A stretch of DNA of 23,226 bases from a virus. Below are positions 1,526 through 20,884 of the stretch, in pieces. The DNA is taken from positions 1-23,226 of the IMG/VR virus record IMGVR_UViG_3300044293_000648, one strand, 5' to 3'. Position numbers and translations under genes: made by a program. The notes under the pieces were generated by a model. That model was not told where the DNA came from. It made no database searches and saw only the letters and a list, made by a program, of their open reading frames with translations. How positions within the stretch are numbered: position 1 is the stretch's first letter; each line of letters starts with the position of its first letter.

Positions 1526-1528
1526 CGA

Positions 1529-5638: not shown

Positions 5639-5650
5639 ACCAGGTCCTAC
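5633..5650 (-). repeat. 18-bp inverted-repeat copy 1 (translation start of the 5638 gene)
   Basis: On the minus strand this reads GTAGGACCTGGTATGAGC and contains the AGGA ribosome-binding site, the ATG and the second codon of the small gene. The identical 18-mer lies on the plus strand at 8253-8270. An exact 18-bp match in a 23-kb window is very unlikely by chance. Confidence 0.85.
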
Positions 5651-5671
5651 GGAGGGGGAAGGTGATGCGTC

Positions 5672-6262
5672 TCACGCCGCCGCGGTGATGCCGGCGGCGA
5701 GCAGGCGCAGGCGCATCTCGGCGATGCGGCGATAGGCGGTGGCGCGGGAGGTGCCCGCGGCCGCGATCGCGGCGGAGGGCGCATCGGCGGAGAGGGCGAC
5801 GCAGAGCGGGCGGTCGCGCGGCGCGATGACGGAGGCCGCGCGGTCGAGGTCGAGACGGCGCTGCAGGTCAGCGACCGCGTCGCTGGGCTGGCCGCACCAG
5901 GCGCCTAGCCCGGCGGCCTCGGGCAGCATCTCCGCCAGCGTCAGCGTCTCGTCACCGCAGGCCCCACCATCGCCGCCCACCACCTCATCGAAGCCCGTGA
6001 GGTGCTGGCGCCGCCGGTCGCGCTGCGCCTGCTGGACGAGGCAATAACCACGATGCCGAAAGCAGACGGTCGCGAAGGCTTCGAGGCTGCCGCGCTTGGG
6101 ATCGAAGGCGCCGAGCCGCGCCAACAGGTCGAGAACCATTTCCTGCTCGACATCCTCGCGGTCATGGCCCGGCAGGCGGACCAGGCGGATGGTGCGGCGG
6201 GATTCGCGGCGCAGGATGGGGCGCAGCAGGTGGAGGTCGGCGAGGGTGAGGCTGGCTGGCAT
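5672..6262 (-). CDS. Sigma-70-like regulator, first gene of the phage early operon
   Basis: A 196-aa protein resembling a compact two-domain sigma factor. Residues 33-72 (GHDREDVEQEMVLDLLARL, GAFDPKRGSLEAFATV) match the region 2 pattern of sigma-70 family members. Residues 155-186 contain a region-4-like helix-turn-helix (AIAAAGTSRATAYRRIAEM). An in-frame ATG at 6301 would add 13 residues, but the ATG at 6262 has GGAG about 6 nt upstream and is followed by a more typical N-terminus, so I choose it. It is the promoter-proximal gene and is transcribed away from the ImmA/XRE switch. It could direct transcription of phage genes, though the RNA-polymerase contacts cannot be verified by eye. Confidence 0.75.
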   Translation of the reverse strand: MPASLTLADLHLLRPILRRESRRTIRLVRLPGHDREDVEQEMVLDLLARLGAFDPKRGSLEAFATVCFRHRGYCLVQQAQRDRRRQHLTGFDEVVGGDGGACGDETLTLAEMLPEAAGLGAWCGQPSDAVADLQRRLDLDRAASVIAPRDRPLCVALSADAPSAAIAAAGTSRATAYRRIAEMRLRLLAAGITAAA

Positions 6263-6517
6263 GGCGGCTCCGGGATCGGTGTGACCTCTAGATGCAAGCA
6301 AATGCCGTCATGGAGGGTGGAGGCGGAAAGGGGCGGAATGGGCGCAAATGCTCGGCAGGATTTCTGCCCCATGGCCAAAGCTCGATTTGGGGGCGATTTT
6401 CCTCTGAAAGCTGCCCGAAGCTCGCTCTGATTTCCGCCCCGACCGTTGCGGAGGCGTGGCTGTGGATTGCGGGGAGAAGGGAACAGGAAGCGAACAAGGC
6501 CATTGACGACGGGGTTA
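6263..6517. promoter_or_regulatory. Divergent regulatory region between early operon and ImmA/XRE switch
   Basis: This 255-nt gap separates the minus-strand early operon from the plus-strand switch genes, so promoters in both directions are expected here. It contains related boxes. GATTTCTGCCCC lies at 6359-6370 and GATTTCCGCCCC at 6429-6440, 70 nt apart in the same orientation. The opposite orientation GGGGCGGAAT lies at 6330-6339, with a weaker GGCGGAAAGG at 6322-6331. A short perfect inverted repeat, GGCAG-5nt-CTGCC, spans 6354-6368 and overlaps one box. These are plausible operators for the XRE protein encoded at 7273. I could not identify convincing -35/-10 pairs. Confidence 0.5.
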
Positions 6518-7276
6518 ATGATCCGGCACCTTCATCGAATGCCCCTCGTCGTCAGCTACCCGCACTCCGCCGGCACCGCCGCCCCGCATCCCCTGTCACG
6601 GGAGGCGCTGTGGAGTGTCGCCGCGCAGGTGCGGCGGCAGTTGCGCGCGCCCGATGAACCCCTGGCCTTGGACATGGGCCGGCTCGTCGGACGCTCGGCC
6701 GAGACGCTTGTAAATGGCCGCCCGGTCCGGGTCGCGTGGGAGCTAGCGCAGCCCGTCCATGACGATGCCGGCCTCTCCGTGCTGGGCGTCTGCGAGACGG
6801 ATCCCGAGATGCCCGGCACCGCGCTGGTGTCGGTCAACGGGCCGATGGTGGCGGGCCGACCGGAGCTGGCGCTCAGCACCGCAGCGCATGAGCTGGGGCA
6901 TGTACTGTTCGATGTGCCCTCGGCGCTCGGAGAGGCCGGCCGGCGGTTCCGCGCTGTGACCGCACTGCCCGAGGCGCTGCTGGACCGGCACGCGGTGCTG
7001 TCCGAGCGGCGGGCCAACGAGTTCATGGGCGCGATGCTGGTGCCGCCGGTGCCGCTGCATCTGCAGATGCTCGTTCACGCCCGTGACGAGGGGCTGCGCA
7101 CCGTCCATGCCGCTCATCACGGCCGGCAAGGCTCGCGCGTGCTGGCGCGGGGCAATCCCCGCGAGGTGGTGGACGGTGTGGTGGCCGCACTCGCCGGCGA
7201 CTTCGGCGTGTCGGAGGGCTTCATCCGGGTGCGGCTGGACCGGTACCGGCTGGTGCAGGGAGGGCTGGTCTCGTGA
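6518..7276 (+). CDS. ImmA/IrrE-family metallo-endopeptidase (M78-like)
   Basis: A 252-aa predicted zinc protease. The HEXXH motif is HELGH at residues 124-128 within STAAHELGHVLFD. The downstream acidic helix SERRANEFMGAMLVP (162-176) supplies the third ligand typical of ImmA/IrrE proteins. In ICEBs1-type switches ImmA cleaves an XRE-family repressor, and here the gene overlaps the next gene, an XRE repressor, by 4 nt (GTGA). I chose the ATG at 6518 because GGGG lies about 7 nt upstream; the ATG at 6539 has no ribosome-binding site and upstream candidates encode Arg-rich sequence. The natural target is most likely the partner repressor. A general stress role like that of IrrE is less likely given the mobile context. 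Confidence 0.85.
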   Translation: MIRHLHRMPLVVSYPHSAGTAAPHPLSREALWSVAAQVRRQLRAPDEPLALDMGRLVGRSAETLVNGRPVRVAWELAQPVHDDAGLSVLGVCETDPEMPGTALVSVNGPMVAGRPELALSTAAHELGHVLFDVPSALGEAGRRFRAVTALPEALLDRHAVLSERRANEFMGAMLVPPVPLHLQMLVHARDEGLRTVHAAHHGRQGSRVLARGNPREVVDGVVAALAGDFGVSEGFIRVRLDRYRLVQGGLVS

Positions 7277-7554
7277 GCTTTGGCTCGGTGGTGCGCGAGA
7301 AGCGCCAGGCGCTGGCGATCAGCCTGAACGACTTCTCTGAGCGGCTCGGCGTGTCGCCGGCCTATTGGTCGCGGATCGAACGTGACCAGGAGAAGCCACC
7401 GCGCGATGACCTCATCGAGAAGGCGGCGGCGATCCTCGGCGTGCGGCTGGATGATCTGTTCGTCGAGGCTGAGCGGCTGCCGCCCGATATGCGCAAGGAC
7501 ATGGCCAAGGTGGTGCAGGCGTATCGGCGGCTGCGGGCCGTCGGACGGGGATAG
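7273..7554 (+). CDS. XRE-family helix-turn-helix repressor
   Basis: A 93-aa protein starting with GTG that overlaps the ImmA stop (GTGA). Residues 5-60 form a typical XRE/Cro-CI helix-turn-helix domain: SVVREKRQALAISLNDFSERL, then GVSPAYWSRIERDQEKPP, then LIEKAAAILGV. The C-terminal tail (RLPPDMRKDMAKVVQAYRRL) is short and may be the dimerisation or cleavage segment. The pairing with an upstream-coupled ImmA protease suggests a derepression switch for the mobile element. The divergent region at 6263-6517 is the obvious operator site. The start is set by the overlap and by alignment of the HTH domain. Confidence 0.9.
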   Translation: MSFGSVVREKRQALAISLNDFSERLGVSPAYWSRIERDQEKPPRDDLIEKAAAILGVRLDDLFVEAERLPPDMRKDMAKVVQAYRRLRAVGRG

Positions 7555-7556
7555 CG

Positions 7557-8231
7557 ATGGCCCCACGCGTTCTGCGCAAGCCCTGCTATGCCTTGGCCGA
7601 GATCTGCACCCGCTGGGGCGTGACGGAGGCGGACCTGGCGAACTTCGCCCTTGCCGATGAGCTGGTCCTGTCGGCGATGGTTGTGCGCCAGCCGATAGAG
7701 GAGGGCGCCGTCGAGGAGGTCGACCCCCGCCAGTTGGCGCACCTCCCGGAGCGCCATCATTGGTTCAGCGGCGGCGTCGAGCTCTGGGCGCAGGATGCCT
7801 GGCAGATCGTTATCGTCGGCAGCAGTAGGGTGACGAGCTTTCGCGCGGCGCAGAATCGATATCGCCGGGTGTGGGCGCCGGACGACGAGGCCGCGGAGGT
7901 TGTGCTGACCCGCGATCGCCTCGTTGTGATGCATGCGGAACTCATCCGGTTCGAGGCGGCACAGGGCGGTGACGTCGAGGTGCTCCGGCCAGCCGCTGGA
8001 CCTGCGTCGCCGCGCGGCGCCCCCGCGCGCTACGATTGGGATGCCTTCTGGTGCGAGCTGGCGGTGATGCTGCAAGTCGAGGGCATGCCGCCGACGCAGG
8101 CGGCTGTCATCCGCCGCATGGAGGCCTGGTTCGCCGAGCGTGGGCAGTTCCCGGATCCCAGCACGGTCAAGCGCAAGGTGGCGCTGCTGTGGCGACATCA
8201 CGCGGAAGCGCTCGCCCGCCCCGCCGCGTGA
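7557..8231 (+). CDS. Hypothetical protein, mobile-element associated
   Basis: A 224-aa protein of unknown function, starting 2 nt after the XRE stop with GGGGAT just upstream. The N-terminal 60 residues (YALAEICTRWGVTEADLANFALADEL) read like a small helical HTH-type segment that may match DNA or a protein partner. The C-terminal 65 residues (YDWDAFWCELAVMLQVEGMP, then AAVIRRMEAWFAERGQFPDPSTVKRKVALLW) form a helical domain with a conserved Trp/Phe pattern that I have seen in alphaproteobacterial element proteins without a named function. Position within the immA-xre cluster suggests a regulatory role. No enzyme motifs are apparent. Confidence 0.75.
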   Translation: MAPRVLRKPCYALAEICTRWGVTEADLANFALADELVLSAMVVRQPIEEGAVEEVDPRQLAHLPERHHWFSGGVELWAQDAWQIVIVGSSRVTSFRAAQNRYRRVWAPDDEAAEVVLTRDRLVVMHAELIRFEAAQGGDVEVLRPAAGPASPRGAPARYDWDAFWCELAVMLQVEGMPPTQAAVIRRMEAWFAERGQFPDPSTVKRKVALLWRHHAEALARPAA

Positions 8232-8252
8232 GACGCCCCGCGAAGCGCGCGG

Positions 8253-8270
8253 GTAGGACCTGGTATGAGC
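8253..8270 (+). repeat. 18-bp inverted-repeat copy 2 (translation start of the 8265 gene)
   Basis: The plus strand reads GTAGGACCTGGTATGAGC, identical to the minus strand at 5650-5633. It covers the ribosome-binding site, start codon and second codon of the small recombinase-cassette gene. The coding sequences diverge immediately after this block. Confidence 0.85.
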
Positions 8271-8486
8271 GCCCGGTCCAGTCAGATGATCATCAACCAG
8301 CACCTCCCGCCGCATCTGCGCGAGGTCTGTTCCATCCTGGCGCGCGGCCTGGTGCGGCTGCGCAGCCGCGCTGCTGAAGACGATGCGCAGGATGCCGAGA
8401 TAGCTCGGGGCGCGGGAGACGTTCGCCTACACTCCACCGCCCACCAGCGCCTGCATGCGAACCCCAACAGGAAGGGACTCGCATGA
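8265..8486 (+). CDS. Small conserved protein of the DUF2924/recombinase cassette
   Basis: A 73-aa protein: HLPPHLREVCSILARGLVRLRSRA, an acidic linker, then DVRLHSTAHQRLHANP. Similar small proteins, recalled rather than searched, precede DUF2924 genes and large serine recombinases in alphaproteobacteria. The stop overlaps the DUF2924 start by 4 nt (ATGA), giving translational coupling. The ribosome-binding site AGGA and the start codon lie in an 18-nt sequence (8253-8270) shared with the 5638 gene on the opposite strand. Function is unknown; an accessory role in recombination is an inference from the strict neighbourhood. Confidence 0.75.
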   Translation: MSARSSQMIINQHLPPHLREVCSILARGLVRLRSRAAEDDAQDAEIARGAGDVRLHSTAHQRLHANPNRKGLA

Positions 8487-8983
8487 CCAGACGATCCACC
8501 GCCGCGACCGCGCCGGCGCCCACCATCCAGAAGATCCCGCCGACGCAGGTGCTAGGGCGGCTCGCCGCGCTGCAGGCAGCGCCCACCGCGGACCTGAAGC
8601 AGCAGTGGCGGGAGCTCTTCGGCAAGGAGCCGCCGCCCTGGAACCGGGCCTACATCCAAAGCCGGCTGGCGTATCGCATCCAGGAGCTCGCCTATGGCGG
8701 GCTGAAGCCCGAGACGGTCGATCGGCTGGTGGCTTTGGGCGAACAGTTGGACGGCGGCAACGTCGTGCTGCGCCGCATCCGGGCCGACAGCCGGCCGCTG
8801 GCCGGCACCCGCCTTATCCGGGAATGGCAGGGCGTGCAGCACGTGGTCACCGTTCGCGCCGATGACTTCGAGTACGAGGGCCGACCCTATCGCTCGCTCT
8901 CCGCCATCGCGCGGCACATCACCGGCACGCGCTGGAACGGCTGGACCTTCTTCGGCCTGCGCCAGCCGGGCGGTAGTGCATGA
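8483..8983 (+). CDS. DUF2924 domain protein
   Basis: A 166-aa protein of the DUF2924 family. The signature region spans about residues 18-78 (VLGRLAALQAAPTADLKQQW, RELFGKEPPPWNRAYIQSRL, AYRIQELAYGGL). A beta-rich C-terminus follows (GTRLIREWQGVQHVVTVRAD, DFEYEGRPYRSLSAIARHIT), ending in GTRWNGWTFFGLR. The ITGTRWNGWTFFGL segment resembles the SAM-like or RAMA-type domain found in proteins acting on DNA. The gene is coupled at both ends (8483-8486 and 8980-8983 overlaps). Because it almost always precedes a large serine recombinase, it is a reasonable candidate for a recombination accessory or directionality protein, but this is not established. Confidence 0.85.
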   Translation: MTRRSTAATAPAPTIQKIPPTQVLGRLAALQAAPTADLKQQWRELFGKEPPPWNRAYIQSRLAYRIQELAYGGLKPETVDRLVALGEQLDGGNVVLRRIRADSRPLAGTRLIREWQGVQHVVTVRADDFEYEGRPYRSLSAIARHITGTRWNGWTFFGLRQPGGSA

Positions 8984-10329
8984 AGGCGCGCGCCACCACA
9001 ACGGCGATGCCGGCCACCACGCAGAAGCTGCGCTGCGCGGTCTACACGCGGAAGAGCACCGACGAGGGCTTGGACAAGGAGTTCAACACCCTCGACGCGC
9101 AGCGCGACGCCTGCGAGGCGTACATCACCAGCCAACGCGCCGAGGGCTGGGCGCTGGTGCGCGATCGCTACGACGACGGCGGCTTCTCCGGCGGCACGTT
9201 GGAGCGGCCGGCGCTGCAGCGGCTCCTGCGCGATATCCAGGCCGACCTGGTCGACGTGATCGTGGTCTACAAGATTGATCGCCTCAGCCGCTCGCTGATG
9301 GATTTCGCCAAGCTGGTCGAGGTGATGGACGCGCATGGCGTCACCTTTGTGTCCGTGACGCAGAGCTTCAACACGACCACCAGCATGGGCCGGTTGACAC
9401 TGAACATCCTACTCAGCTTCGCGCAGTTCGAGCGCGAGGTAATCGGCGAGCGCATCCGCGACAAATTCGCAGCGTCGCGGGCGCGAGGGATGTGGATGGG
9501 CGGCAAGGTGCCGCTCGGCTACGACGTCGTAGCCCGCAAGCTGGTGGTGAATGAGGACGAGGCGCCGCGGGTGCGCCGGGTGTTCGAGATCTTCGCCGAG
9601 ACGGGATCCGGCATCGAGACGGTGGCGCGCCTACGGGCTGAAGGCGCCACCAGCAAGTCCGGGCGACCGCTCGACAAGGGTGATATCTACAAGCTGCTGA
9701 ACAACCGAACCTATGTCGGCGAGGCCGCGCACAAGGGGCAGGTCTATCCAGGCGAGCACCAGGCGATCGTGTCGCGGGAGCTCTGGGACCGGGCGCACGC
9801 GGTGCTGCAGATCAGTCCGCGCGTGCGGGCAAACCAGAACCGGGCGCAGACGCCAGCGCTGCTGAAGGGGCTGATCTTCGGGGTGGACGGGCGGGCACTG
9901 TCGCCGACCCACGCGCGGAAGAACGGCCGGCTCTACCGCTACTACGTGGCCCAGCGCGTCCTGAAGGGTCATGCCGGCAGGGACGACGCCATCGTGCGCC
10001 GGGTGTCGGCGGCGGAGATCGAGGCCGCGGTGGTGGACCAGGTGCGGGCGCTGCTGCGCCAACCGGAGATCGTGGTCGGCACCTGGCGCGCGGCGCGGGT
10101 GGAGGCGCCTGACCTGACCGAGGGCGAGGTTCAGGATGCGCTGCATCGGCTCGACCCGCTTTGGGAACATCTATTCCCAGCGGAGCAGGCGCGCATTGTG
10201 CGTTCGCTGGTCGAGCGTGTGGTGGTTGTCCCCGCCGGCGCGGACATTCGGCTGCGGCTGGACGGGCTCGGCAGCCTCGTCCGCGATCTGACCGCGATTC
10301 GGCCCGATGCGCTGAGGGCGGCGGCATGA
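8980..10329 (+). CDS. Large serine recombinase (site-specific integrase)
   Basis: A 449-aa resolvase/invertase-family recombinase. The catalytic domain spans about residues 18-165, with the nucleophile S26 in YTRKSTDEG, the conserved segment YKIDRLSRS (97-105, R101 and R104) and the helix FAQFEREVIGERIRDK (147-162). A recombinase domain (about 175-280, PLGYDV to WDRAHAVLQ) follows. The region that is usually a Cys4 zinc ribbon reads LLKGLIFGVDGRALSP (294-309), with no cysteines. This cysteine-free form is, as I recall, usual for the DUF2924-linked subfamily. The start overlaps the DUF2924 stop and the end overlaps the next gene. It likely integrates and excises the element; the att site it uses is not visible. 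Confidence 0.93.
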   Translation: MKARATTTAMPATTQKLRCAVYTRKSTDEGLDKEFNTLDAQRDACEAYITSQRAEGWALVRDRYDDGGFSGGTLERPALQRLLRDIQADLVDVIVVYKIDRLSRSLMDFAKLVEVMDAHGVTFVSVTQSFNTTTSMGRLTLNILLSFAQFEREVIGERIRDKFAASRARGMWMGGKVPLGYDVVARKLVVNEDEAPRVRRVFEIFAETGSGIETVARLRAEGATSKSGRPLDKGDIYKLLNNRTYVGEAAHKGQVYPGEHQAIVSRELWDRAHAVLQISPRVRANQNRAQTPALLKGLIFGVDGRALSPTHARKNGRLYRYYVAQRVLKGHAGRDDAIVRRVSAAEIEAAVVDQVRALLRQPEIVVGTWRAARVEAPDLTEGEVQDALHRLDPLWEHLFPAEQARIVRSLVERVVVVPAGADIRLRLDGLGSLVRDLTAIRPDALRAAA

Positions 10330-10724
10330 CTGCCGCCACCAGCATCACGGTCAGGGTGCCGCTGGCAATCCGCCACCGGCGGGGCCGAAAGACCGTCGTG
10401 ACGCCGATGGCAGATGGCGCAGCGCCGGTCACCACGAAGGCCGACCCGGCGTTGGTGAAGGCTTTGGCCAGGGCTTTCCGCTATCAGCGGATGCTGGACG
10501 AGGGGCGCTACGCCTCGATCACCGAGATGGCTGCGGCGGAGCGAATCGAGCGGGGGTACCTGGGGTCCCTGCTGCGCCTGACCCTCCTGGCGCCCGACCT
10601 CGTAACCAACGCCGTCGATGGGCGGCAACCGCCCTCGGTAGCCCTGGCCGCCCTATTGGAACCATTTCCGCTATGCTGGCGCAGCCAGGGCGAATTGTTC
10701 GGCAATGACGGGTCGGGAAAGTAA
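10326..10724 (+). CDS. HTH protein downstream of serine recombinase
   Basis: A 132-aa protein whose ATG overlaps the recombinase stop (ATGAC). After a variable basic N-terminus, residues 40-112 contain a conserved helix-turn-helix-like segment: LVKALARAFRYQRMLDEGRY, then ASITEMAAAERIERGYLGSL, then LRLTLLAPDLVTNAVDGRQP. It ends with LLEPFPLCWRSQ. This is the small ParB/KorB-like HTH protein that commonly follows recombinases of this type. A role in DNA binding at the attachment or partition site is likely but unproven. The open frame upstream of this ATG is a recombinase shadow. The restriction gene's longest frame begins inside the last 20 nt. Confidence 0.8.
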   Translation: MTAATSITVRVPLAIRHRRGRKTVVTPMADGAAPVTTKADPALVKALARAFRYQRMLDEGRYASITEMAAAERIERGYLGSLLRLTLLAPDLVTNAVDGRQPPSVALAALLEPFPLCWRSQGELFGNDGSGK

Positions 10725-10779
10725 TGGCCGCGGCCACATGGCCATTATGCGAGGGCGAAGTCCGTGGCATCTTCGGGGC

Positions 10780-13700
10780 GTGACAGGCCCCGTGATCGAC
10801 AACCCGATTCTCAACAGCCCCTTCGCGGAGCCATCCCGCCATTGGGAGCTCGACGAGAGCGGCATCCCCACTGGCACCCCGGCGCTTGGCCGGCGGCGCA
10901 GCGAATTCATCGTCCCCGTCCCCCCGCCGAAGCACAAGGTGAAGGCCCAGGCCACCCTCGACCTCGAGGACGAGTACGGTAAGCGCCAGCCGAACGACTA
11001 CATCAATGAAATCAGGGCCAAAGTCGCCCAATGGCGTTCCCTCGGCGAACAGGGCCTGCGCCCCGTCACGCCCGTCACGGCCCGCCTGCTGCGCCACTGG
11101 CGGGAACAGGGCCGGGCCCGCCCGCTCTTCTTCTGCCAGGTCGAGGCAGTCGAGACCGCCATCTGGCTGACCGAAGTCGCCCCCCGCGCCGAGACAGAGC
11201 GCCTGCGCACCCTCAATTCGGAAGCCAATCCCGACCTCCTGCGCATCGCCTTCAAGCTGGCGACCGGCGCCGGCAAGACCACCGTCATGGGGATGCTGAT
11301 CGCCTGGCAGACCCTCAACGCCGCCCGCACGCGCAATTCGACCCGCTTCACGGACGCCTTCCTGATCGTGGCCCCCGGCCTGACGGTGAGGGACCGCCTG
11401 CGCGTGCTCCACCCGTCCGACCCGTCCAACATCTACGCCGCCCTCGACATCGTGCCGCGGGAGCTGCGTGACGACCTCCAGCGCGCCCGGATCGTCATCA
11501 CCAACTTCCACGCCTTCAAGAAGCGCGAAACGCTCGAGGCGCCGAAGCTGGCGAAGGAGATCCTGGCCGGCCGCACCGGCAAGGTCGAGCGCCCCGAAAC
11601 CGACGGCCAGATGGCGCAGCGCATCTGCAAGGACCTGCTTGGCCGCAAGCGCATCATCGTCATCAACGACGAAGCCCACCACTGCTATCGCCAGAAGGTC
11701 GGCGCCGCGGATGACGCCGGCGCGAAGCTCGATGCTGAAGGCAAGGCGGAGGCCAAGAAGAACAATGCCGCCGCCCGCCTCTGGATCAGCGGCATCGAGG
11801 CGCTGCAACGCGTCGTCGGCCAGCCTGTCCTGGTGTACGACCTCTCTGCCACGCCCTTCTTCCTGCGCGGCTCAGGATACCCCGAGGGCACGCTCTTCCC
11901 CTGGGTCGTCTCCGACTTCTCCCTAATCGACGCCATCGAATGCGGCATCGTGAAGGTGCCCCGCGTGCCGGTGCAGGATCTGCCGGGTGCCGACGAGCCG
12001 GTCTATCGGCACGTCTATCGCTACATCCAGGAACATTCGGATGTGAAGCTGCCCAAGGCTGGCCGGGCCAAGCAGGGCAAGCCGCTCACGCCCGACCAGC
12101 TTCCCTCCCAGCTCACCGGCGCGCTGCAGGCGCTCTACGGCCACTACCGCCAGGTGTTCGAGAACTGGGCCAGCCGCGGCGGCAGCACACCGCCGGTCTT
12201 CATCGTGGTGTGCAACAACACAGCCACCTCGAAGCTCGTGCACGACTGGATCGCCGGCTACGAGCGCATCGAGACCGACGCCGAGGGTGCCGAGCGCCGC
12301 GTGATCGTGCCTGGCAACCTGCCGCTCTTTTCCAACGTCACGCAGGCGGGCATCGGCCAGAGCAGCATGGTGGAGCGCCCCGTCACCATCCTGATCGACA
12401 GCGAGGAACTCGAATCTGGCGAAGCCCTGTCGGACGACTTCCGCAAGCTGGCAGGCCCGGAGATTGACGCCTTCAAGCGCGAGCTCCGCGCCCGCGGTCG
12501 CCATGCGGAAGCGGAGACCATCACCGACAGCGACCTGCTGCGCGAGGTGATGAACACCGTCGGCCAGCCCGGCCGGCTGGGCGAGCCGATCCGCTGCGTG
12601 GTCTCCGTCTCCATGCTGACCGAGGGATGGGACGCGCGCACCGTCACCCATGTGCTGGGCGTCCGCGCCTTCGGCACGCAATTGCTGTGCGAGCAGGTGA
12701 TCGGGCGCGCGCTGCGCCGCGTCTCCTACGACCCGGTCGGCGTGGATGATTCCGGCAACGCCATGTTCGCGTCGGAATATGCCGAGGTGCTGGGCATCCC
12801 CTTCAGCTTCGTGCCGGCCAATTCCAAGGCCGACTACACGCCCCCGAAGAAGACCACCCAGGTCCACGCCGTGTTGCCGGAGCGCGCGGCGCTAGAGATC
12901 CGCTTCCCGCGCGTCATCGGCTACCGCACCGTTCTGCCGCCCGGCCGCATCACCGCCGCCTTCGACCCCGAAAGCCGCCTGACCATCACGCCGGAGGACG
13001 CGCCGCCCGAGGCCGTCAACGCCGCCATCATCGGCGCCGAGCACACGCTGACGCTGAACGACCTCCGCCACCAGCGCGACAGCACCATCGCCTTCCACCT
13101 GGCCGGCCACACGCTCCGCACTTGGTTCCGCGACAGCGAGGACCACCTGAAGCCCTGGCTGTTCCCGCCGCTGCTGACCATCACGCGGCGCTGGATGGCG
13201 GAATGCCTGACCTGCCTGGGCGGCACCTTCCCGGCCTACCTGCTGTGGCGCGACATCGGCGACAAGGCGGCGGAGCGCATTTTTCGGGCCTGCACACCGG
13301 AGGTGGCCGGGGCAGGGACCCTGCGCCCCATCCTCGACCCCTACAACGAAGCGGGCAGCACGCGCCATGTCAGCTTCGCCACCACCAAGACGAATTTTTG
13401 GGACCCCAACCCGGAAAAATGCCAGGTCAACCTGATCGTCTGCGATGAGAATTGGGAGGCCGCGGCGGCGCAGGCGCTGGACGGCATGCCTGAGGTGCTG
13501 CGCTACGTGAAGAACGACCGTCTCGGCTTCGAAGTGCCCTATGTGGATGGCAGCACCGAGCGTCACTACCGGCCCGACTTCATCGTGGTGGTGGATGACG
13601 GTCGCGGCCCGGATGATCCGCTGCACCTCGTGCTGGAGGTGAAGGGCCGCCAGACCGCGCAGGATGACGCGAAGTACGACACGCTTCGAAAACTCTGGGT

Positions 13701-13824
13701 GCCGGCGGTGAACGCGCTGGGGCGCTTCGGCCGCTGGGATTTTTGCCGGGTGGATGGACCCTATGGCGTGGATGAGATCATCCGGCGGCGGCTGAATGCC
13801 GACGCTCTCTCACGCGCCGCCTGA
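10780..13824 (+). CDS. BPTD_3080-family / type III Res-like restriction helicase-nuclease
   Basis: A predicted 1014-aa ATP-dependent restriction subunit. Walker A LATGAGKTTVM is centred on K166, the DEAHH box is at 297-301, LSATPFFLRG follows, and the helicase C region runs through SVSMLTEGWDARTVTHV to EQVIGRALRR (about 638-647). The C-terminus carries a PD-(D/E)XK-type nuclease: D933 in YRPDFIV, then E953 and K955 in LEVKGRQ. The conserved start in this family reads like PVIDNPILNSPF, so I favour the GTG at 10780. In-frame ATGs at 10705, 10738 and 10747 are possible and none has a strong ribosome-binding site. The cognate methyltransferase begins 19 nt after the stop. The pair would cut DNA lacking its methylation. 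Confidence 0.88.
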   Translation: MTGPVIDNPILNSPFAEPSRHWELDESGIPTGTPALGRRRSEFIVPVPPPKHKVKAQATLDLEDEYGKRQPNDYINEIRAKVAQWRSLGEQGLRPVTPVTARLLRHWREQGRARPLFFCQVEAVETAIWLTEVAPRAETERLRTLNSEANPDLLRIAFKLATGAGKTTVMGMLIAWQTLNAARTRNSTRFTDAFLIVAPGLTVRDRLRVLHPSDPSNIYAALDIVPRELRDDLQRARIVITNFHAFKKRETLEAPKLAKEILAGRTGKVERPETDGQMAQRICKDLLGRKRIIVINDEAHHCYRQKVGAADDAGAKLDAEGKAEAKKNNAAARLWISGIEALQRVVGQPVLVYDLSATPFFLRGSGYPEGTLFPWVVSDFSLIDAIECGIVKVPRVPVQDLPGADEPVYRHVYRYIQEHSDVKLPKAGRAKQGKPLTPDQLPSQLTGALQALYGHYRQVFENWASRGGSTPPVFIVVCNNTATSKLVHDWIAGYERIETDAEGAERRVIVPGNLPLFSNVTQAGIGQSSMVERPVTILIDSEELESGEALSDDFRKLAGPEIDAFKRELRARGRHAEAETITDSDLLREVMNTVGQPGRLGEPIRCVVSVSMLTEGWDARTVTHVLGVRAFGTQLLCEQVIGRALRRVSYDPVGVDDSGNAMFASEYAEVLGIPFSFVPANSKADYTPPKKTTQVHAVLPERAALEIRFPRVIGYRTVLPPGRITAAFDPESRLTITPEDAPPEAVNAAIIGAEHTLTLNDLRHQRDSTIAFHLAGHTLRTWFRDSEDHLKPWLFPPLLTITRRWMAECLTCLGGTFPAYLLWRDIGDKAAERIFRACTPEVAGAGTLRPILDPYNEAGSTRHVSFATTKTNFWDPNPEKCQVNLIVCDENWEAAAAQALDGMPEVLRYVKNDRLGFEVPYVDGSTERHYRPDFIVVVDDGRGPDDPLHLVLEVKGRQTAQDDAKYDTLRKLWVPAVNALGRFGRWDFCRVDGPYGVDEIIRRRLNADALSRAA

Positions 13825-13843
13825 ATCCGGAAGACAGCGCAGC

Positions 13844-16729
13844 ATGGCCCGCCCGAAGAAGCTCAAGCCCGACGCCAAAACCGCCCCCCTTGGCACCGAG
13901 GTGGAAACCCTTGTCCATCCGGCCGATGTCGCGCGGCGAAACATCCCGACCGCGGAGACCGCGGCGCTGATGGTGGAGGAGGAAGCGCGGGCGGAACCGA
14001 AGCTCTATCCCCGCAATCCCGACCTCGACCCGCAACTGGTCTGGCGCGGGAAGGACGCGCAGGACAGTGCGCCGCTGCGCGTCGAGACGGTTCCCATCTA
14101 CATCCAGGAGAAGTTGTATCCCGAGGCGCTGATCCGCGACCTGCAACGCGTCTCGGCGAAGGAAGCGGCACCGCAGGCCGATCTGTTCGGCAGCTTCGAC
14201 CGCATCACGGATGAGGCGGCGCGGCTCGAATTCTACCAGCACGCCGAGAACTGGTCGAACCGGATGATCCTGGGCGATTCTTTGCTTGTCATGAACAGCC
14301 TGGCGGAGAAGGAAGGGCTGCGCGGCCAGGTGCAGATGATCTACCTGGACCCGCCCTACGGCATCCGCTTCGCGAGCAACTGGCAGCCGAGCACGCGCAG
14401 TCGCGATGTGAAAGAGGGCAAGGCCGACGGGATGTCGCGGGAGCCGGAGCAGATCAAGGCGTTCCGGGATACCTGGAAGGACGGCATCCACAGTTACCTG
14501 GCCTATCTGCGAGATCGTCTGGTGGTGGCGCGGGAACTGCTGACAGAGAGCGGCAGCGTTTTCGTGCAGATTGGCGACGAGAACGTTCATCTTGTCAGGG
14601 CCGTGATGGACGAGGTTTTCGGACAGTCCAACCTCGTTGCTCAGATCACGGTCGAAAAGACCAGCAGCCAGACGCAGGAGTATCTCTCTCCTGTCACCGA
14701 CTACGTGCTCTGGTTTTCCCGTGACAAGGCTCGCCTGAAATTTCGATCTGCGTATGTCGGTAAGCAGGGCTCTGCTGGGTTTGCTGAATACCGACGTGTT
14801 CAGGAAGCCACTCTCGCGAGGCGATCCATGTCGTCCGACGAGGTCAGCGGCAGCCGAGAGTTGCCCGATGGCAGCCGTCGCTATCGCCAGGACACCCTTA
14901 CCAGCCAAAGCCAGGGACGGGAGAAAGGGGAGGGCGCGGCCTCTTGGTTCCCAGTCGCGGTGTTCGGGACCGAGTTTCGTCCGAGCATGCAGAACCGTTG
15001 GAAAACAAACGAGACCGGGATGGCGCGCCTGATTGCCACGGCACGGGTCGAAGCGCGCGGCCAAAGTTTAGCCTATGTGCGCTTCCTGGAAGACTTCCCG
15101 CTGATGGATATCAACAACATTTGGCGCGACGTGAAATTCTCAAGCCGTCGTGAGGACAAGCTCTACGTGGTCCAGACGGCAGATATCATGGTGCAGCGCT
15201 GCATGCTCATGACCACTGATCCTGGCGACCTTGTCCTCGACCCCACATGCGGCTCCGGCACGACCGCCTTCGTGGCCGAGCAATGGGGCCGCCGCTGGAT
15301 CACCACCGACACCTCGCGCGTCGCCCTCGCCCTCGCGCGCACGCGCCTCATGGCCGGCCGCTTCCCTGCCTACCTGCTGCGCGACAGCCGTGAGGGCGCC
15401 GCGAAGGAAGGCGAGATCACCGGCCGGCCGCCCGAGGAAGGCCCCTTCCGCCACGACATCCGCCAGGGCCTGGTGCTGGAGCGCGTGCCGCATGTCACAC
15501 TGAAATCCATCGCCAACAACGCCGAGATCGATGTCATCCACGCCAACTGGGTGCCGAAGATCGAGGCCGCGCTCGCCGCCCTCAACACCGCCCTCGGGAC
15601 ACATCACGCCGAATGGCAGGTCCCTCGCACCCTGCCCGAAGACGCGAAGCCGGCGGCGCAGGAGGCGCATGCGGCCTTCTGGGCCGCCCGCCGCGCCCGG
15701 CAGGCGGAGATGGACGCCTCCATCGCCCGCAACGCCGAGACCGAGTTCCTGCACGACCGGCCCTACGCCAAGAAGAACGCCGTCCGCGTCACGGGTCCCT
15801 TCACCGTGGAAAGCCTCTCGCCCCACCGCGTCCTCCCCGCGGATGAGGAAGACCAGGCTGTGATGGAGGCGCTGGCGCAGGAAGCGGGCGAGCCCGTGCC
15901 CGAACGCCGCCCGCTTCGCACCCGGCCCGACAGTGGCGATGACTTCGTGACCGCCGTGCTGGACAACCTGCAGAAGGCCGGCGTGCAGAACACGAAGAAG
16001 GGTGAGCGCCTGACCTTCGCCACGCTGCGCGCCTGGCCTGGCGGCAGCCGAGTCTCGGCCGAGGGCGAATACGAGGAAGCGGGCGTGAAGAAGCGCGCCG
16101 CCATCGTCATCGGCCCCGAATACGGCACCGTCGGCCCGGACCTGGTGCGCGAGGCCGCGCGCGAATGTCGCGACTGGGCGGATGCCATGGTCGTCTGCGG
16201 CTTTGCCTTCGATCCGCAGGTAGGCGACAGCACCATGAATCTCGGCCGCCTGGTGGTGCTGAAGGCACGCATGAGCCAGGAGCTGCGCGCCGCCGAAGCC
16301 TACAAGGCCGGCGGCGGCAACCTGTTCGTGGTGTTCGGTGAGCCGGATATTGAGCTGGCGCGCGTCCCGCGCGACGCGCTCGACCAGGCCGACGGCGCGT
16401 ACGTCGTGCGCCTGAAGGGCGTGGACATCTTCGACCCCACCACGGGCGAGGTCCGCTCCTCCGGCCGGGTCGAGGATGACGTGGCCTGCTGGTTCGTGGA
16501 CACGGACTATGACGGCGACAGCTTCTTCGTCCGCCATGCCTACTTCCTCGGCGGCAAGGACCCCTTTGAGAAACTGAAGACCGCGCTGCGGGCCGAGGTG
16601 GACGAGGACGCCTGGGCCAGCCTCTACCGCACAGAAAGTCGCCCCTTCGCGAAGCCGAAGTCGGGCCGGATCGCGGTGAAGGTGATCAACCACTACGGCG
16701 ATGAGGCAATGAGGGTGTTCAAGATCTGA
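13844..16729 (+). CDS. Beta-class site-specific DNA methyltransferase (Mod of the Res-like system)
   Basis: A 961-aa adenine- or N4-cytosine-type methyltransferase. Motif IV DPPYG is at residues 169-173 and precedes motif I DPTCGSGTTAF at about 466-476, the beta-class order (IV, target-recognition domain, I). The C-terminal 480 residues are an extra region with beta-rich segments (RTRPDSGDDFVTAVLDNLQK, ATLRAWPGGSRVSAEGEYEE) typical of large type III-like Mod subunits. The ATG at 13844 has GGAAGA about 10 nt upstream and the family-like start MARPKKL. An in-frame ATG at 13796 would overlap the nuclease gene. The segment between about 14.62 and 15.23 kb has visibly less G/C at third positions than its flanks, suggesting a swapped recognition domain. 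Confidence 0.92.
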   Translation: MARPKKLKPDAKTAPLGTEVETLVHPADVARRNIPTAETAALMVEEEARAEPKLYPRNPDLDPQLVWRGKDAQDSAPLRVETVPIYIQEKLYPEALIRDLQRVSAKEAAPQADLFGSFDRITDEAARLEFYQHAENWSNRMILGDSLLVMNSLAEKEGLRGQVQMIYLDPPYGIRFASNWQPSTRSRDVKEGKADGMSREPEQIKAFRDTWKDGIHSYLAYLRDRLVVARELLTESGSVFVQIGDENVHLVRAVMDEVFGQSNLVAQITVEKTSSQTQEYLSPVTDYVLWFSRDKARLKFRSAYVGKQGSAGFAEYRRVQEATLARRSMSSDEVSGSRELPDGSRRYRQDTLTSQSQGREKGEGAASWFPVAVFGTEFRPSMQNRWKTNETGMARLIATARVEARGQSLAYVRFLEDFPLMDINNIWRDVKFSSRREDKLYVVQTADIMVQRCMLMTTDPGDLVLDPTCGSGTTAFVAEQWGRRWITTDTSRVALALARTRLMAGRFPAYLLRDSREGAAKEGEITGRPPEEGPFRHDIRQGLVLERVPHVTLKSIANNAEIDVIHANWVPKIEAALAALNTALGTHHAEWQVPRTLPEDAKPAAQEAHAAFWAARRARQAEMDASIARNAETEFLHDRPYAKKNAVRVTGPFTVESLSPHRVLPADEEDQAVMEALAQEAGEPVPERRPLRTRPDSGDDFVTAVLDNLQKAGVQNTKKGERLTFATLRAWPGGSRVSAEGEYEEAGVKKRAAIVIGPEYGTVGPDLVREAARECRDWADAMVVCGFAFDPQVGDSTMNLGRLVVLKARMSQELRAAEAYKAGGGNLFVVFGEPDIELARVPRDALDQADGAYVVRLKGVDIFDPTTGEVRSSGRVEDDVACWFVDTDYDGDSFFVRHAYFLGGKDPFEKLKTALRAEVDEDAWASLYRTESRPFAKPKSGRIAVKVINHYGDEAMRVFKI

Positions 16730-16802
16730 CGATGACGATCCTCGTGGCCCGCAGGTTCTCTGCCGGATTCGCCCCTGTATGGCTTGCTTCCGTCTGCGAA
16801 GG

Positions 16803-16819
16803 GCTGCCTGACCGGCAGC
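16803..16819. terminator. Hairpin after the methyltransferase gene
   Basis: A perfect 6-bp stem, GCTGCC with GGCAGC, encloses a 5-nt loop (TGACC), 74 nt beyond the methyltransferase stop and upstream of the toxin gene. There is no following T-run on either strand, so it is at best a weak or factor-dependent terminator. A TACAAT hexamer at 16852-16857 could be a -10 box for the toxin-antitoxin genes, but I see no good -35. Confidence 0.25.
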
Positions 16820-16947
16820 GCAGCGGGCGGGGCTCGCGCGGTCGGCGCTGTTACAATTCTTGCCATTGAGAGGTCACGAACGGTGCGCCTAGGCTCGCAA
16901 GCCGACACGCCGTCTGGCTCGGATGGCCCCCGGCCATGTTAAGTGGC

Positions 16948-17277
16948 ATGGAGGTCGCATTCCGGACCAAGACGCTGCGGAGTCTGTGCGAGAACGAGGA
17001 GCTTATGGAGGAGAGATTCGGTCCGGAGATAACCAAGGCGCTGATGCGGCGCTTGGCCGATCTGCGTGCATCGACCTCCCTCTCCGACCTAGTCCTTGGC
17101 GACCCCCGGGACGTTCCAGGGACCAATGGTCGGTCCAAGACGATTGAGATCGCGTCCGGCCACCGTCTGGTCATTCGCGCCAACCATGCGAAGAACCCCA
17201 CGTTGACTGACGGTACAACTGATTGGCGAAGGGTCAGCCACGTTCAGGTTATGTCGATCGAGGTACCCCATGCCTGA
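16948..17277 (+). CDS. HigB/RelE-like toxin (plasmid-maintenance killer family)
   Basis: A 109-aa protein with the RelE/HigB pattern: MEVAFRTKTLRSLCENEELM at the N-terminus, the helix ALMRRLADLRASTSLSDL (about 31-48), a strand HRLVIRANHAKNP in the middle and a C-terminal strand SHVQVMSIEVPHA. HigB-type toxins are ribosome-dependent mRNA endonucleases; activity here is inferred. I choose the ATG at 16948 over the in-frame ATG at 16936 because homologues begin with the ME-V-F strand, though ribosome-binding sites are weak for both. The stop overlaps the antitoxin start by 8 nt, the toxin-first order typical of hig loci. Confidence 0.8.
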   Translation: MEVAFRTKTLRSLCENEELMEERFGPEITKALMRRLADLRASTSLSDLVLGDPRDVPGTNGRSKTIEIASGHRLVIRANHAKNPTLTDGTTDWRRVSHVQVMSIEVPHA

Positions 17278-18382
17278 AGCTGGGACGTTTGAGCCGAACT
17301 GGGTCTCGCCACCTGGCGATACGATCGCGGAGTTGCTGGCCCATCGATCGCTATCTCTCGTCGATTTTGCCGAGCGCATCGGCACGCCGGTCGATACGGC
17401 CGACGAACTGGCACGGGGTCTTGTTCAAATAGATCGGCCGCTGGCGGAGCGCCTCGAGCGCGCCCTTGGTCCATCCGCAACGTTCTGGATCAACCGTGAG
17501 GCCCAGTACCGCGCCGACGTAGCCAGGCTGGGCTCTCGTGCGACTGCGGCCGCAGACAAGGCATGGGTGCAGGAGCTACCGACACGCGATATGGCTGCCT
17601 TCGGATGGATCCGCGCCACAGAGACGTTTGCTGAGAAGCTGGCGGAATGCCTCCGGTTCTTCGCGGTGCCGAACGTCGATGCCTGGCATCGGCAGTATGG
17701 CGGGGCGGCTGCAGTCGCGGCTTTTCGCATGTCATCGGCGTTCGCGTCGCGGCCGGGTGCGGTCAGCACTTGGCTCCGTTGGGCAGAGATTGTCAGCGGC
17801 CGCACCGAATGTCGCCCGTGGGCACCTGAGGAGTTCCGCGCCAAGCTGGACGAAATCAGGCGCATGACGTGGGTCAAGGATCCTGCGGTTTTCCTTCCGA
17901 AGCTGGGGAAAATCTGCGCTGATTGCGGCGTTGCCGTTGTTGTCGCCCGAACTCCAAGCGGTTGTCCCGCGAGCGGGGCAACCCGCTTCTTGACGCCTGA
18001 CAAGGCGTTGATGGTTCTGAGTTTTCGCTATCGGACCGACGACCAGTTTTGGTTCACCTTTTTTCATGAGGCCGGTCACCTGCTTCTGCACGGGAAGGAC
18101 GCGCTGTTCCTGGAGGACGGGAGCGACGTCACCTCACCGGAGGAGGCTGAAGCGAATGAGTTCGCCGCGCGGCTGCTGATCCCCGATGCGCTCCTGACAG
18201 AGTTCCGTGCGCTCCGCCCGTTGCCGAAGGACATCTTCGATTTTGCGCGGAGAGCGGAGGTTGCGCCAGGTATGATCGTGGGCCAGTTACAGCATCACAA
18301 TCGCTTGGGTAAGGATCGATTGAATTATCTAAAGAGGCGATACTCTTGGGATGCAATCTTCGCCGACAGCGCTAACCCCTAA
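17270..18382 (+). CDS. HigA-type HTH antitoxin fused to ImmA/IrrE metallo-endopeptidase
   Basis: A 370-aa two-domain protein. Residues 10-85 are a HigA-like helix-turn-helix (PPGDTIAELLAHRSLSLVDF, AERIGTPVDTADELARGLVQ, LGPSATFWINREAQYR). The C-terminal half carries HEAGH at 266-270 and the downstream helix EEAEANEFAARLLIP (291-305), an ImmA/IrrE zinc protease. Fusing antitoxin and protease suggests that toxin neutralisation or repressor stability is tied to proteolysis, which is an inference. The start ATG overlaps the toxin stop by 8 nt. The gene's tail overlaps the convergent pyrophosphorylase gene by 11 nt. Confidence 0.9.
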   Translation: MPEAGTFEPNWVSPPGDTIAELLAHRSLSLVDFAERIGTPVDTADELARGLVQIDRPLAERLERALGPSATFWINREAQYRADVARLGSRATAAADKAWVQELPTRDMAAFGWIRATETFAEKLAECLRFFAVPNVDAWHRQYGGAAAVAAFRMSSAFASRPGAVSTWLRWAEIVSGRTECRPWAPEEFRAKLDEIRRMTWVKDPAVFLPKLGKICADCGVAVVVARTPSGCPASGATRFLTPDKALMVLSFRYRTDDQFWFTFFHEAGHLLLHGKDALFLEDGSDVTSPEEAEANEFAARLLIPDALLTEFRALRPLPKDIFDFARRAEVAPGMIVGQLQHHNRLGKDRLNYLKRRYSWDAIFADSANP

Positions 18383-19316
18383 ATGAAATGAATTTGGCTG
18401 GGCTTTTTTGCCAATTACAAATGGCGTCCTCAAGCGTTTGCATACCCGCTTGCAGGTGATCGTCTAGGGTCAGCAAGCTCTTGTCGAGAATTTTCCCGCT
18501 GAGTGCGGAGTGTACATTACCGGTGAACAGCAGCCGAGCACCACGCAGTGGTCCAGTGGCCTCCCCTAGATAGGCTGATCCTGGGTCGATCGGCGCGATC
18601 CCAAGCTTACCCAGCATCGTGAGGTAATCGAACTTCGCCAGCCTGCCGAAACGGCGGACTGCATTCATTTGAACGTACAGGTGATTGAAGACTTCCTTCG
18701 GATTCTGTCCGACCAGCCTGTGGGCGTCTCGGATCAGGTCCTGGTGCGTGCGTGGTGGCCGAACCCACTGAACGTAGGAATCGAACACAGCCGCGGTTCC
18801 GGCTGCCGACGACGCCTTCAGGCTCTCATACTTCCGGTGATTGCTGAACCGGCGTGAGACGCCGTCACCACCCGAGAGGCGTCTCTCGTGAGCAGTTAAC
18901 CAAACACGGAATGCAGCCGGGTTCGCGCTAATCGTCTTCCAGTCCCACAATCCGGGTCCGCCTAGTTTGCCGTAGACGTCGCGGGCCAGGCGCCAGCCAT
19001 CTCGCGCATGCTTTCCAAAATGCGTGGCGATGAACGTCAGCCAATACGCCTCGTCGACCTCACCGCGCCGAAGCCGCAAAGCTGCGGCCCTCAACGGGTC
19101 AAATAGGTCAGAATGTGGATCCATCCGGCGCGGGTCGTGCAGATTGTCCCGAACCCAGTGGACAAATTCGATTCGGCGCAGGCTCTCGACGAGCTGCTCA
19201 ACAAGGCAGTCGAGGTGCCCCGGCGGGTGGATGCCCGGCAGTTGCTGCACTTGCGCGTCGATCCTCTGCAATTCTGCTGAAAGACGTAGACCGCGTTGAC
19301 GCTCCCCAGGCTTCAC
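18372..19316 (-). CDS. Alpha-glutamyl/putrescinyl-thymine pyrophosphorylase clade 3 protein
   Basis: A 314-aa protein I recognise as aGPT-Pplase clade 3. Distinctive segments are LVEQLVESLRRIEFVHWV (39-55), SDLFDPLRAAAL (69-80), DEAYWLTFIATHFGKHARDG (88-107), VYGKLGGPGLWDW (114-126), SNHRKYESLKA (158-168), FGRLAKFDYLTMLGKLGI (223-240) and the C-terminal GMQTLEDAICNWQKSPAKF. In hypermodified phages related proteins install amino acids or polyamines at the methyl group of thymine through a pyrophosphorylated intermediate. Clade 3 members are mostly bacterial and, as far as I know, untested. The start overlaps the stop of the synthase gene (ATGA), so the two are coupled. The tail overlaps the HigA-ImmA gene by 11 nt, convergently. 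Confidence 0.82.
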   Translation of the reverse strand: MKPGERQRGLRLSAELQRIDAQVQQLPGIHPPGHLDCLVEQLVESLRRIEFVHWVRDNLHDPRRMDPHSDLFDPLRAAALRLRRGEVDEAYWLTFIATHFGKHARDGWRLARDVYGKLGGPGLWDWKTISANPAAFRVWLTAHERRLSGGDGVSRRFSNHRKYESLKASSAAGTAAVFDSYVQWVRPPRTHQDLIRDAHRLVGQNPKEVFNHLYVQMNAVRRFGRLAKFDYLTMLGKLGIAPIDPGSAYLGEATGPLRGARLLFTGNVHSALSGKILDKSLLTLDDHLQAGMQTLEDAICNWQKSPAKFISFRG

Positions 19317-20368
19317 GGCGCTGCCACCAGCTTGTTGCTGCCTCCATCCATGATCCCTGGAAGGCCTTTCTGAGGTTCGTCCGAAGCTGCTGTTAGGGCC
19401 TGGGCCTTGCGACGAATGAATGAAGCGTAGGCGCCGCTATGCATTGCTTTCTGCTCCTCCACGATCCCGCGACGGTCCTTTGAATTGATCAAAGCGAAAA
19501 TGCGGAGAAGTCGCGCCAGGTCGACCCAGTAGGGATCAACACCATCTGCCTCAAGCGGGGACAGGCGCCCTTTCCTGATCGCCTCTTCGTTTGCTCGTAA
19601 CCAGTCAATAGAGGGCCATGGATCACCGATCGGCATAGCGGGCATTTCGGTTCGGTATTGCCAGCCCTCCGCCAGGAAATCGCGCGCCCTGCGTTCATCT
19701 TGATCATAGAGATGAAGGCTACCGACGGAGTGTGTGTAGGTTCCGAGCTCTAAACCCACGTCACGGGCCACGATTTCCTGCATGAATGTAAATGCGAATA
19801 CGTCGTGCGGCAGACCGATGTAGGCGTCGTTTGATCGCATATGAACAACCATATGCAACCTTCCTCCCCTTGGAAGGAACTGCATTGTGCAGGTACACGG
19901 CACATCTGAGGAATTTGTGAGTAGGTCAAGTTTGTCGTAAATTTGAATTACGGCTTGTCGAGTATCGGATTTTCCATTCGGATCAGCCAGTTTTCGTCGA
20001 ATCAATTGTATGACCGCATTCATCTGGCTTTTGTTGCCGGAGCCGAAAATGCGAGGTCCGTAACCACCGCTCGCAAGTCTTGCGCCTTTCTTTGCCCCCG
20101 AGAGGTCTCGGTATTTTTTTATGTAATACGTGATGTGGTCGAGAGAGTTGGATCCGGAGAGATACCATAAAGTTTCGCCAAGGCAGCTAAACAAGACTGC
20201 GCGATTCTCTGTTCGGCTGAAGCGAGCACGAGGGTTTCGGATTTTCAAAATCGCACCGATGATTTCGCGCGCCAGACCCTTTCCCGAGCTCGTGCGGGTC
20301 TTACTGCTCAATAGACGGGTGAATGCCTGACGAAGCGCGTCATCAAGCGTGTCGGCACTGATGAACAT
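19313..20368 (-). CDS. Thymidylate-synthase-like pyrimidine (hydroxy)methylase
   Basis: A 351-aa homologue of thymidylate synthase. The catalytic Cys is C158 in VPCTCTMQF. The phosphate and base region reads MRSNDAYIGLPHD (177-189), and HLYD (219-222) matches the C-terminal nucleotide-binding motif. ETLWYLSG (65-72) and GGYGPRIFG (101-109) match the folate-site and Tyr-Gly segments. Counting from the catalytic Cys, D189 falls exactly at E. coli Asn177, which selects uracil in dUMP synthases. Asp there is seen in dCMP hydroxymethylases and favours cytosine. The enzyme is therefore more likely to make a 5-methyl or hydroxymethyl cytidylate than dTMP. The segment is more A/T-rich than the flanking genes. 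A C-terminal extension (about 310-351) has no counterpart in the short synthases. Confidence 0.85.
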   Translation of the reverse strand: MFISADTLDDALRQAFTRLLSSKTRTSSGKGLAREIIGAILKIRNPRARFSRTENRAVLFSCLGETLWYLSGSNSLDHITYYIKKYRDLSGAKKGARLASGGYGPRIFGSGNKSQMNAVIQLIRRKLADPNGKSDTRQAVIQIYDKLDLLTNSSDVPCTCTMQFLPRGGRLHMVVHMRSNDAYIGLPHDVFAFTFMQEIVARDVGLELGTYTHSVGSLHLYDQDERRARDFLAEGWQYRTEMPAMPIGDPWPSIDWLRANEEAIRKGRLSPLEADGVDPYWVDLARLLRIFALINSKDRRGIVEEQKAMHSGAYASFIRRKAQALTAASDEPQKGLPGIMDGGSNKLVAAP

Positions 20369-20809
20369 TCGCTCAGATTCGCTAACCGCAAAGCGGGATC
20401 AACCTACCAGCGAATGCACTACTAACCAAGGTTTCGTTCCGGGTGTCTACCGCCCCAGGCAATGTCACGAGCGAACTCCAAGTGGGGAAGTGAGCCGGTG
20501 GATTCGCCTTCTCCCGGGCACCAAGCTTGTAGGTGACCAACGAACTTCGCGCTCCAGTGCCCTTTGCCAGGCGGTCGACTTGTTGAAGCAGACTGAGCTT
20601 GTCGTAGAAAAAATCCAGCAATCTCAATGATGTAAATCTTGAGGGTGAAATCGGGCTACCCCCGAGCTGCGGAGAATTTGGAGGCTGCGGAGAGCGATTT
20701 CCGCGGTCGTTGCGTTCTCCAACCCTCAAGCCAGCGCGACAAAACCCCAGGAAACCTGCGCCTCAGCGCGGTACCACGGTTAGGGGAGACTGGTTGTGAG
20801 GGAACCGAC
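20369..20809. other. Leader region upstream of the synthase operon, with a possible short ORF
   Basis: A 441-nt stretch between the synthase gene and the tRNA gene. A minus-strand frame ending at 20382, only 13 nt before the synthase start, stays open for about 115 codons; its last 80 residues include LLDFFYDKLSLLQQVDRLAK. It has no ATG, no good ribosome-binding site and no family I recognise, so I do not call it a gene. The stretch should hold the operon promoter, but I found no clear -35/-10. It contains a duplicated GCTGCGGAGA (listed separately). A 9-bp inverted repeat, CTTGAGGGT at 20638-20646 and ACCCTCAAG at 20722-20730, is also present. Confidence 0.4.
20666..20693. repeat. Direct repeat GCTGCGGAGA, period 18 bp
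   Basis: Two identical 10-mers, GCTGCGGAGA, start at 20666 and 20684. They lie between the tRNA-Gly gene and the synthase operon, about 300 nt upstream of the synthase ATG. The spacing of nearly two helical turns is compatible with binding of a dimeric regulator. Two copies are too few to be conclusive. Confidence 0.5.
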
Positions 20810-20884
20810 TGGAGCGGGCGAAGGGATTCGAACCCTCGACCCCAACCTTGGCAAGGTTGTGCTCTACCCCTGAGCTACGCCCGC
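20810..20884 (-). tRNA. tRNA-Gly (anticodon GCC), CCA encoded
   Basis: On the minus strand the gene reads from 20884. The acceptor arm GCGGGCG pairs with CGCCCGC at the 3' end. The anticodon stem-loop ACCTTGCCAAGGT presents GCC, which reads glycine codons GGC and GGT. The T-loop GGTTCGAATCC is present, the discriminator is T, and CCA is encoded at 20812-20810. The 3' end points toward the accessory region, the usual orientation for a tRNA gene used as an attachment site. Confidence 0.96.

Follow-up and report, generated by a model that had tools for sequence, protein, structure and literature searches.

The genes for a thymidylate synthase (TS)-like protein, an aGPT-Pplase clade 3 protein (aGPT-Pplase3), an HTH-IrrE peptidase and a small HigB-fold protein form one fixed four-gene module, as shown by 91 distinct loci drawn from genomes of nine phyla, plasmids, and proviruses. 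Its genes move as one mobile cassette. On balance, we favor a reading in which this is a conflict module of four and sometimes five genes, most likely anti-phage, with the product of the two enzymes being read by a switch made of the peptidase and the HigB-fold protein. The module was analysed in a linear IMG/VR virus record of 23,226 bases, the whole of which is referred to here as the window, with the following features.

8980-10329, plus strand: serine recombinase (ORF; context)
10705-13824, plus strand: type III restriction (res) subunit (Pfam ResIII, 1.1e-8)
13796-16729, plus strand: type III methyltransferase (Pfam N6_N4_Mtase, 2.7e-30; PADLOC MTase_III)
16936-17277, plus strand: small protein with a RelE/YoeB/HigB fold (AlphaFold2 and Foldseek)
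17270-18382, plus strand: fusion of an Xre/HigA-like HTH and an IrrE/M78 metallopeptidase with the motif HEAGH (Pfam Peptidase_M78, 3.4e-10)
18372-19316, minus strand: aGPT-Pplase clade 3 / amino acid:DNA transferase-like protein, 314 aa (Pfam PF18746, 1.9e-106)
19313-20368, minus strand: TS-superfamily protein, predicted dCMP 5-hydroxymethylase, 351 aa (Pfam Thymidylat_synt, 2.2e-18)
20810-20884, minus strand: tRNA-Gly(gcc), right limit of the stretch common with Pseudoroseomonas cervicalis

The two minus-strand genes that a first-pass annotation had described as a coupled pair are real open reading frames, and the Pfam matches bear out the TS-superfamily and aGPT-Pplase clade 3 identities given to them there. 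They overlap by 4 nt as described, but the overlap reads GTGA rather than ATGA, and the start codon of the aGPT-Pplase3 gene is GTG. The pair is indeed richer in A/T than its flanks, with a GC content of 53-60% over about 17.5-21 kb and of about 62-74% elsewhere, the window as a whole being at about 70%. The HTH-IrrE gene is convergent to the aGPT-Pplase3 gene, with their ends overlapping in the window, and its start is in turn overlapped over 8 nt by the small HigB-fold gene. Restriction and toxin-antitoxin-like genes thus adjoin the pair, as had been noted, in the form of the type III pair and the HTH-IrrE/small-ORF pair. Replication-like genes (PD-(D/E)XK, helicase, AAA_24 ATPase, sigma-like) lie in the left part of the window (1-8300), as does another M78 peptidase gene, at 6446-7276; despite the filing of the record as a virus, no phage structural genes were recognised in this part.

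The 91 loci were picked by aGPT-Pplase3 similarity, with the species-genome scan contributing the best 80 of 220 relatives. When all of their ORFs were searched with our own profiles, the TS-like gene and the HTH-IrrE peptidase gene were each found in 90 of the 91 loci and the small gene in 83. The two gaps, L004 without a TS gene and L034 without a peptidase gene, both fall at contig ends. Since the TS-like and aGPT-Pplase3 genes recur together in 90/91 loci, their pairing is far beyond chance. This census of clade 3 homologues upholds the coupling proposed in the first-pass annotation and enlarges its extent, from a two-gene system to a module of at least four genes to which the toxin-antitoxin-like neighbors belong. 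The order is TS-like, aGPT-Pplase3, and then the convergent peptidase and small genes, almost without gaps: the ends of the aGPT-Pplase3 and peptidase genes lie no more than 25 nt apart in 82 of 90 loci, and overlap of the peptidase and small genes is usual. A further 22 provirus contigs have the identical gene order, with gaps at contig ends only. Pairwise distance matrices of the four proteins, compared across 72 loci, gave r values of 0.59-0.73 (shuffled maximum 0.22). This co-occurrence shows a joint function, though it does not give the direction of any signal.

Module carriers include plasmids, proviruses, and recombinase islands. Seven plasmids, from Roseomonas, Rhizobium, Neorhizobium, Pantoea, Leptospira, Agrobacterium, and Arthrobacter, contain a TS gene, an aGPT-Pplase3 relative, and a convergent ImmA/IrrE-type gene. 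Nine phyla come from the genome rows, and a Spirochaetota plasmid adds a tenth. On the Leptospira plasmid, the aGPT-Pplase3 gene is split across two annotated reading frames (L009:5956-6889) and may be broken. The 813 flanking ORFs are diverse, the commonest being tyrosine-type or serine recombinases. The family is rare in samples from the larger groups: no other family match was found in 288 alphaproteobacteria and no other match above cut-off in 246 Bacteroidota, and 245 Actinomycetota yielded three other matches, one with the whole module. At the DNA level, nothing close to the TS gene was found in E. coli genomes, and tblastn with aGPT-Pplase3 gave no match in 50,697 phage records. In L099 and L100, which carry very distant actinobacterial aGPT-Pplase3 relatives, the short flanks have no TS or peptidase gene.

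The TS-like protein is very probably a dCMP 5-hydroxymethylase, as predicted from its active-site residues. Among solved structures, its profile best matched the CMP 5-hydroxymethylase MilA (3.1e-71), with thymidylate synthases at 4e-26 or worse, and residue positions were mapped to MilA through the alignment of this profile match. The nucleophilic Cys (C158) is present in 73/73 homologues, each time followed by a Thr as in MilA, and the catalytic Glu (E65) in 72/73. The base-selecting Asp (D189), aligned with MilA D186, is likewise kept in 73/73 homologues. At the deoxyribose-selecting positions, S179 (MilA A176) is Ser in all 73 and R137 (MilA K133) is Arg in 69. In MilA, Asp186, which is Asn in uracil enzymes, is the mark of cytosine substrates, and Ala176 and Lys133 mark ribose where Ser and Arg mark deoxyribose; a double mutant turns MilA to dCMP (PMC5175136). 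The T4 dCMP hydroxymethylase depends on the equivalent Asp and Cys (PMC6400193). Since the active-site residues of the TS-like protein predict dCMP, the product would derive from cytosine and not from thymine. The hypermodified pyrimidine of the first-pass annotation is plausible, but thymine as its base is disfavored by the selecting residues (Asp, Ser, Arg).

MilA, the nearest solved relative, works in an antibiotic pathway, and the pair might accordingly have nothing to do with conflict and serve ordinary nucleotide metabolism or the making of a secondary metabolite, much as MilA does for mildiomycin. We consider this highly improbable, given that biosynthetic genes were not seen to recur around the module, that the deoxy-specific residues are unlike those of MilA, and that the distribution is rare and mobile.

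The aGPT-Pplase3 protein matches PF18746 with 356 bits against a curated cut-off of 25, and a second Pfam model, ADDT (PF18724), covers the same residues (1.3e-72). Its AlphaFold2 model, built from 64 sequences, is all-helical (pLDDT 97.1, pTM 0.93); plasmid-derived rows were left out of the two structure-prediction alignments. No solved structure matched the model at E < 0.001. The top PDB match was PUGT (gp46, 8z2m; probability 0.82), a phage glycinyltransferase with phosphomethyl-deoxyuridine as its substrate. Third in rank was the Pyrococcus protein 1xg7 (probability 0.80), which we take to be an AGOG-type DNA glycosylase, and the named AGOG 7p8l appeared as a lower-ranked match. Among viral models, phage amino acid:DNA transferase-like proteins were best (1.8e-5), followed by the helical domain of 5-hmdU kinase and endonuclease III. 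The transferase fold is well supported, and a role as a base or nucleotide transferase is likely. H160, R225, E296, D297, C300, N301, W302, and K304 are among the invariant residues of aGPT-Pplase3, and nothing points to a lost active site; the TS-like protein likewise keeps C158, S179, and D189. Phage pyrimidine hypermodification pathways require a base kinase. As the first-pass annotation had remarked for the window, no hydroxymethyl-base DNA kinase is present among its Pfam-scanned genes, and no base kinase was seen among the recurrent families of the flanking ORFs.

The N terminus of the HTH-IrrE peptidase is HigA-like, matching HigA models, and the HExxH motif is intact in 89/90. The defence library used, PADLOC, models neither the TS genes nor the aGPT genes. 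Against it, the peptidase matched PD-Lambda-2_B (PDLC03982) at 4e-21 to 8e-30 over much of its length and is, by profile similarity, a distant relative of PD-Lambda-2 B. PD-Lambda-2 is a validated abortive-infection system in which the HigA-peptidase itself is toxic and a HigB-like protein is the neutraliser (PMC9519451). For the small protein, no sequence family was found in Pfam or further sequence searches, and structure was needed. Its AlphaFold2 model (pLDDT 85.5) matched RelJK/YoeB/HigB in Foldseek with a probability of 1.00, E values from 8e-4, and a query TM of about 0.56-0.63. The catalytic residues of HigB ribonucleases are presumably a C-terminal Asp/Tyr/His triad. No such conserved triad is seen in the family alignment of the small protein, where the conserved positions are R15, C18, G29, D42, and W97, and the protein may therefore not be a nuclease. 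By analogy with PD-Lambda-2, it may be a partner rather than the killer.

The bacterial island setting described in the first-pass annotation agrees with the carriage of the module elsewhere and with a limit at the tRNA-Gly gene. The left limit (about 8303) and the module recur, at about 94-95% DNA identity, in islands of Pseudoroseomonas cervicalis and Falsiroseomonas algicola, and the right limit of the P. cervicalis island falls exactly at the tRNA-Gly end. The island probably spans 8303-20884, a stretch that contains the serine recombinase and a DUF2924 gene and closes with the tRNA-Gly end, and tRNA-Gly is the probable integration site. A repeat scan of each island end taken separately gave no direct repeat. 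Recombinases homologous to the serine recombinase of the island lie near the module in 9 loci. The type III genes (10705-16729) are intact here and largely deleted in the near-identical sister islands of P. cervicalis and F. algicola (L012 and L013), with about 2.5 kb of the region gone in L012. Because they decay in sister islands in which the module stays, they are passengers. As part of the module they can be ruled out: unlike the toxin-antitoxin-like genes, the restriction neighbors do not belong to it.

This bears on whether the pair might hypermodify host or island cytosines against nucleases, marking the DNA as self in an anti-restriction or restriction-modification-like role, with the toxin-antitoxin pair a separate stabiliser of the element. 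Phage aGPT-Pplase relatives modify DNA and so protect it against restriction, the module resides on mobile elements, and a type III restriction-modification system is adjacent in the window. However, that system is largely lost from two sister islands that keep the module, no nuclease that would cut unmarked DNA was seen to recur nearby, and a separate stabiliser would not explain a convergent pair in 90/91 loci. Self-marking therefore seems unlikely to us as the role of the module.

A fifth gene of about 266 aa is found in 29 of the 91 loci, usually between the TS and aGPT genes, and is absent from the window. Its family (for example, L009:5169-5972 and 28 other loci) has LGLNPSN and YNHNxQSS motifs and no Pfam match. 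We considered and set aside a uracil-DNA glycosylase (UDG) identity, which the motifs alone suggest: Pfam, a PDB profile, and hhalign, the last against loosely extracted UDG proteins, gave no support. In two Bacteroidota loci, a NUDIX hydrolase whose nearest solved relatives are MutT and CTP pyrophosphohydrolases is encoded directly upstream of the TS-like gene (L053:1568-1951 and L032:6517-6918). A dCTPase that supplies dCMP to the TS-like enzyme would make sense here, though two loci are a small sample. DUF4031 proteins also recur within or beside the module (L082:8934-9350, L059:6773-7135, L065:2781-3092).

These variants could fit a module that poisons nucleotides, in which a modified dCTP enters replicating phage DNA, to be excised there or to block replication, with the HTH-peptidase pair acting only on expression. 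A dCMP-specific enzyme suits action at the nucleotide level. The upstream NUDIX hydrolase and the short UDG-reminiscent motifs of the fifth gene also speak for this reading. However, the fifth gene is missing here and its glycosylase nature found no backing, and host DNA would be exposed to the poison too. We regard this explanation as quite improbable.

In the mechanism we prefer, that of an enzyme product read by the peptidase/HigB switch, aGPT-Pplase3 is predicted from family and fold to bind the hydroxymethyl-cytosine unit and attach an amino acid or amine to it. Given its DNA-glycosylase-like fold, the hydroxymethyl-cytosine would probably be flipped out of DNA, and the hydroxyl would be activated without a base kinase encoded by the module. 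The resulting hypermodified deoxycytidine could be free or in DNA. Together with its HigB-fold partner, the HTH-IrrE peptidase may form a toxin-antitoxin-like switch that would read the presence, loss, or disturbance of this product and then halt growth. A role in conflict or defence is probable, and the anti-phage reading draws on carriage by plasmids, proviruses, and recombinase islands, the likeness to PD-Lambda-2 B, and the listing of aGPT-Pplase by DefensePredictor, all of which we count in its favor. That the modified product is coupled directly to the switch is possible but rather uncertain. More tentatively, hypermodified deoxycytidine, as a ligand or a DNA mark, might keep the peptidase/HigB pair off until a phage takes over nucleotide or DNA metabolism and the toxic activity is set free.

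Our literature search joining the module terms, the scope of which did not include the 2013 and 2015 computational family papers, returned no paper describing the module. If the mechanism holds, bacteria themselves, and not phages alone, make hypermodified cytosine, and this base would be the guard signal of a toxin-antitoxin-type switch. The chemistry would also be new, an amino-modified cytosine made without a base kinase, and the HTH-IrrE peptidases, which are poorly understood, would gain a new input, in a sharply testable defence module found across about ten phyla. The module points to a little-known route of sensing or stopping viruses.

The DefensePredictor paper (2026, PMC13092281) lists aGPT-Pplase as a defence domain by prediction only; the systems that it reports as validated in E. 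coli include domains of thymidylate synthase and of 5-hmdU kinase. The Fig. 6F legend for its aGPT-Pplase system also lists HTH and UDG domains. Compared by that legend alone, the two systems have aGPT-Pplase in common, and the DefensePredictor system may be this very module. Like PD-Lambda-2, the module has a B-type HTH-peptidase gene downstream of an overlapping HigB-fold gene. Compared with the HigB-like PD-Lambda-2 A, the small protein has the HigB fold by structure, and PADLOC models give no A match. Where PD-Lambda-2 has its third component, C, the module has the TS/aGPT genes, encoded on the other strand; apart from these and the fifth gene of some loci, no recurrent gene was found beside the peptidase and small genes.

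The aGPT-Pplase3 protein resembles phage amino acid:DNA transferases, aGPT-Pplases, and PUGT in its ADDT/aGPT-Pplase Pfam families and its all-helical, DNA-glycosylase-like fold. Unlike phage thymidine hypermodification, its partner is a cytosine-type enzyme and there is no DNA-base kinase. The TS-like protein shares with MilA and T4 dCMP hydroxymethylase the TS superfamily and an active site with a nucleophilic Cys, a cytosine-selecting Asp, Glu, His, and Tyr. In place of Ala176 and Lys133 of MilA it has Ser and Arg, like deoxy-specific enzymes. The settings also differ, as MilA belongs to an antibiotic cluster and the T4 enzyme to a lytic phage, whereas the protein described here is part of a bacterial mobile module.
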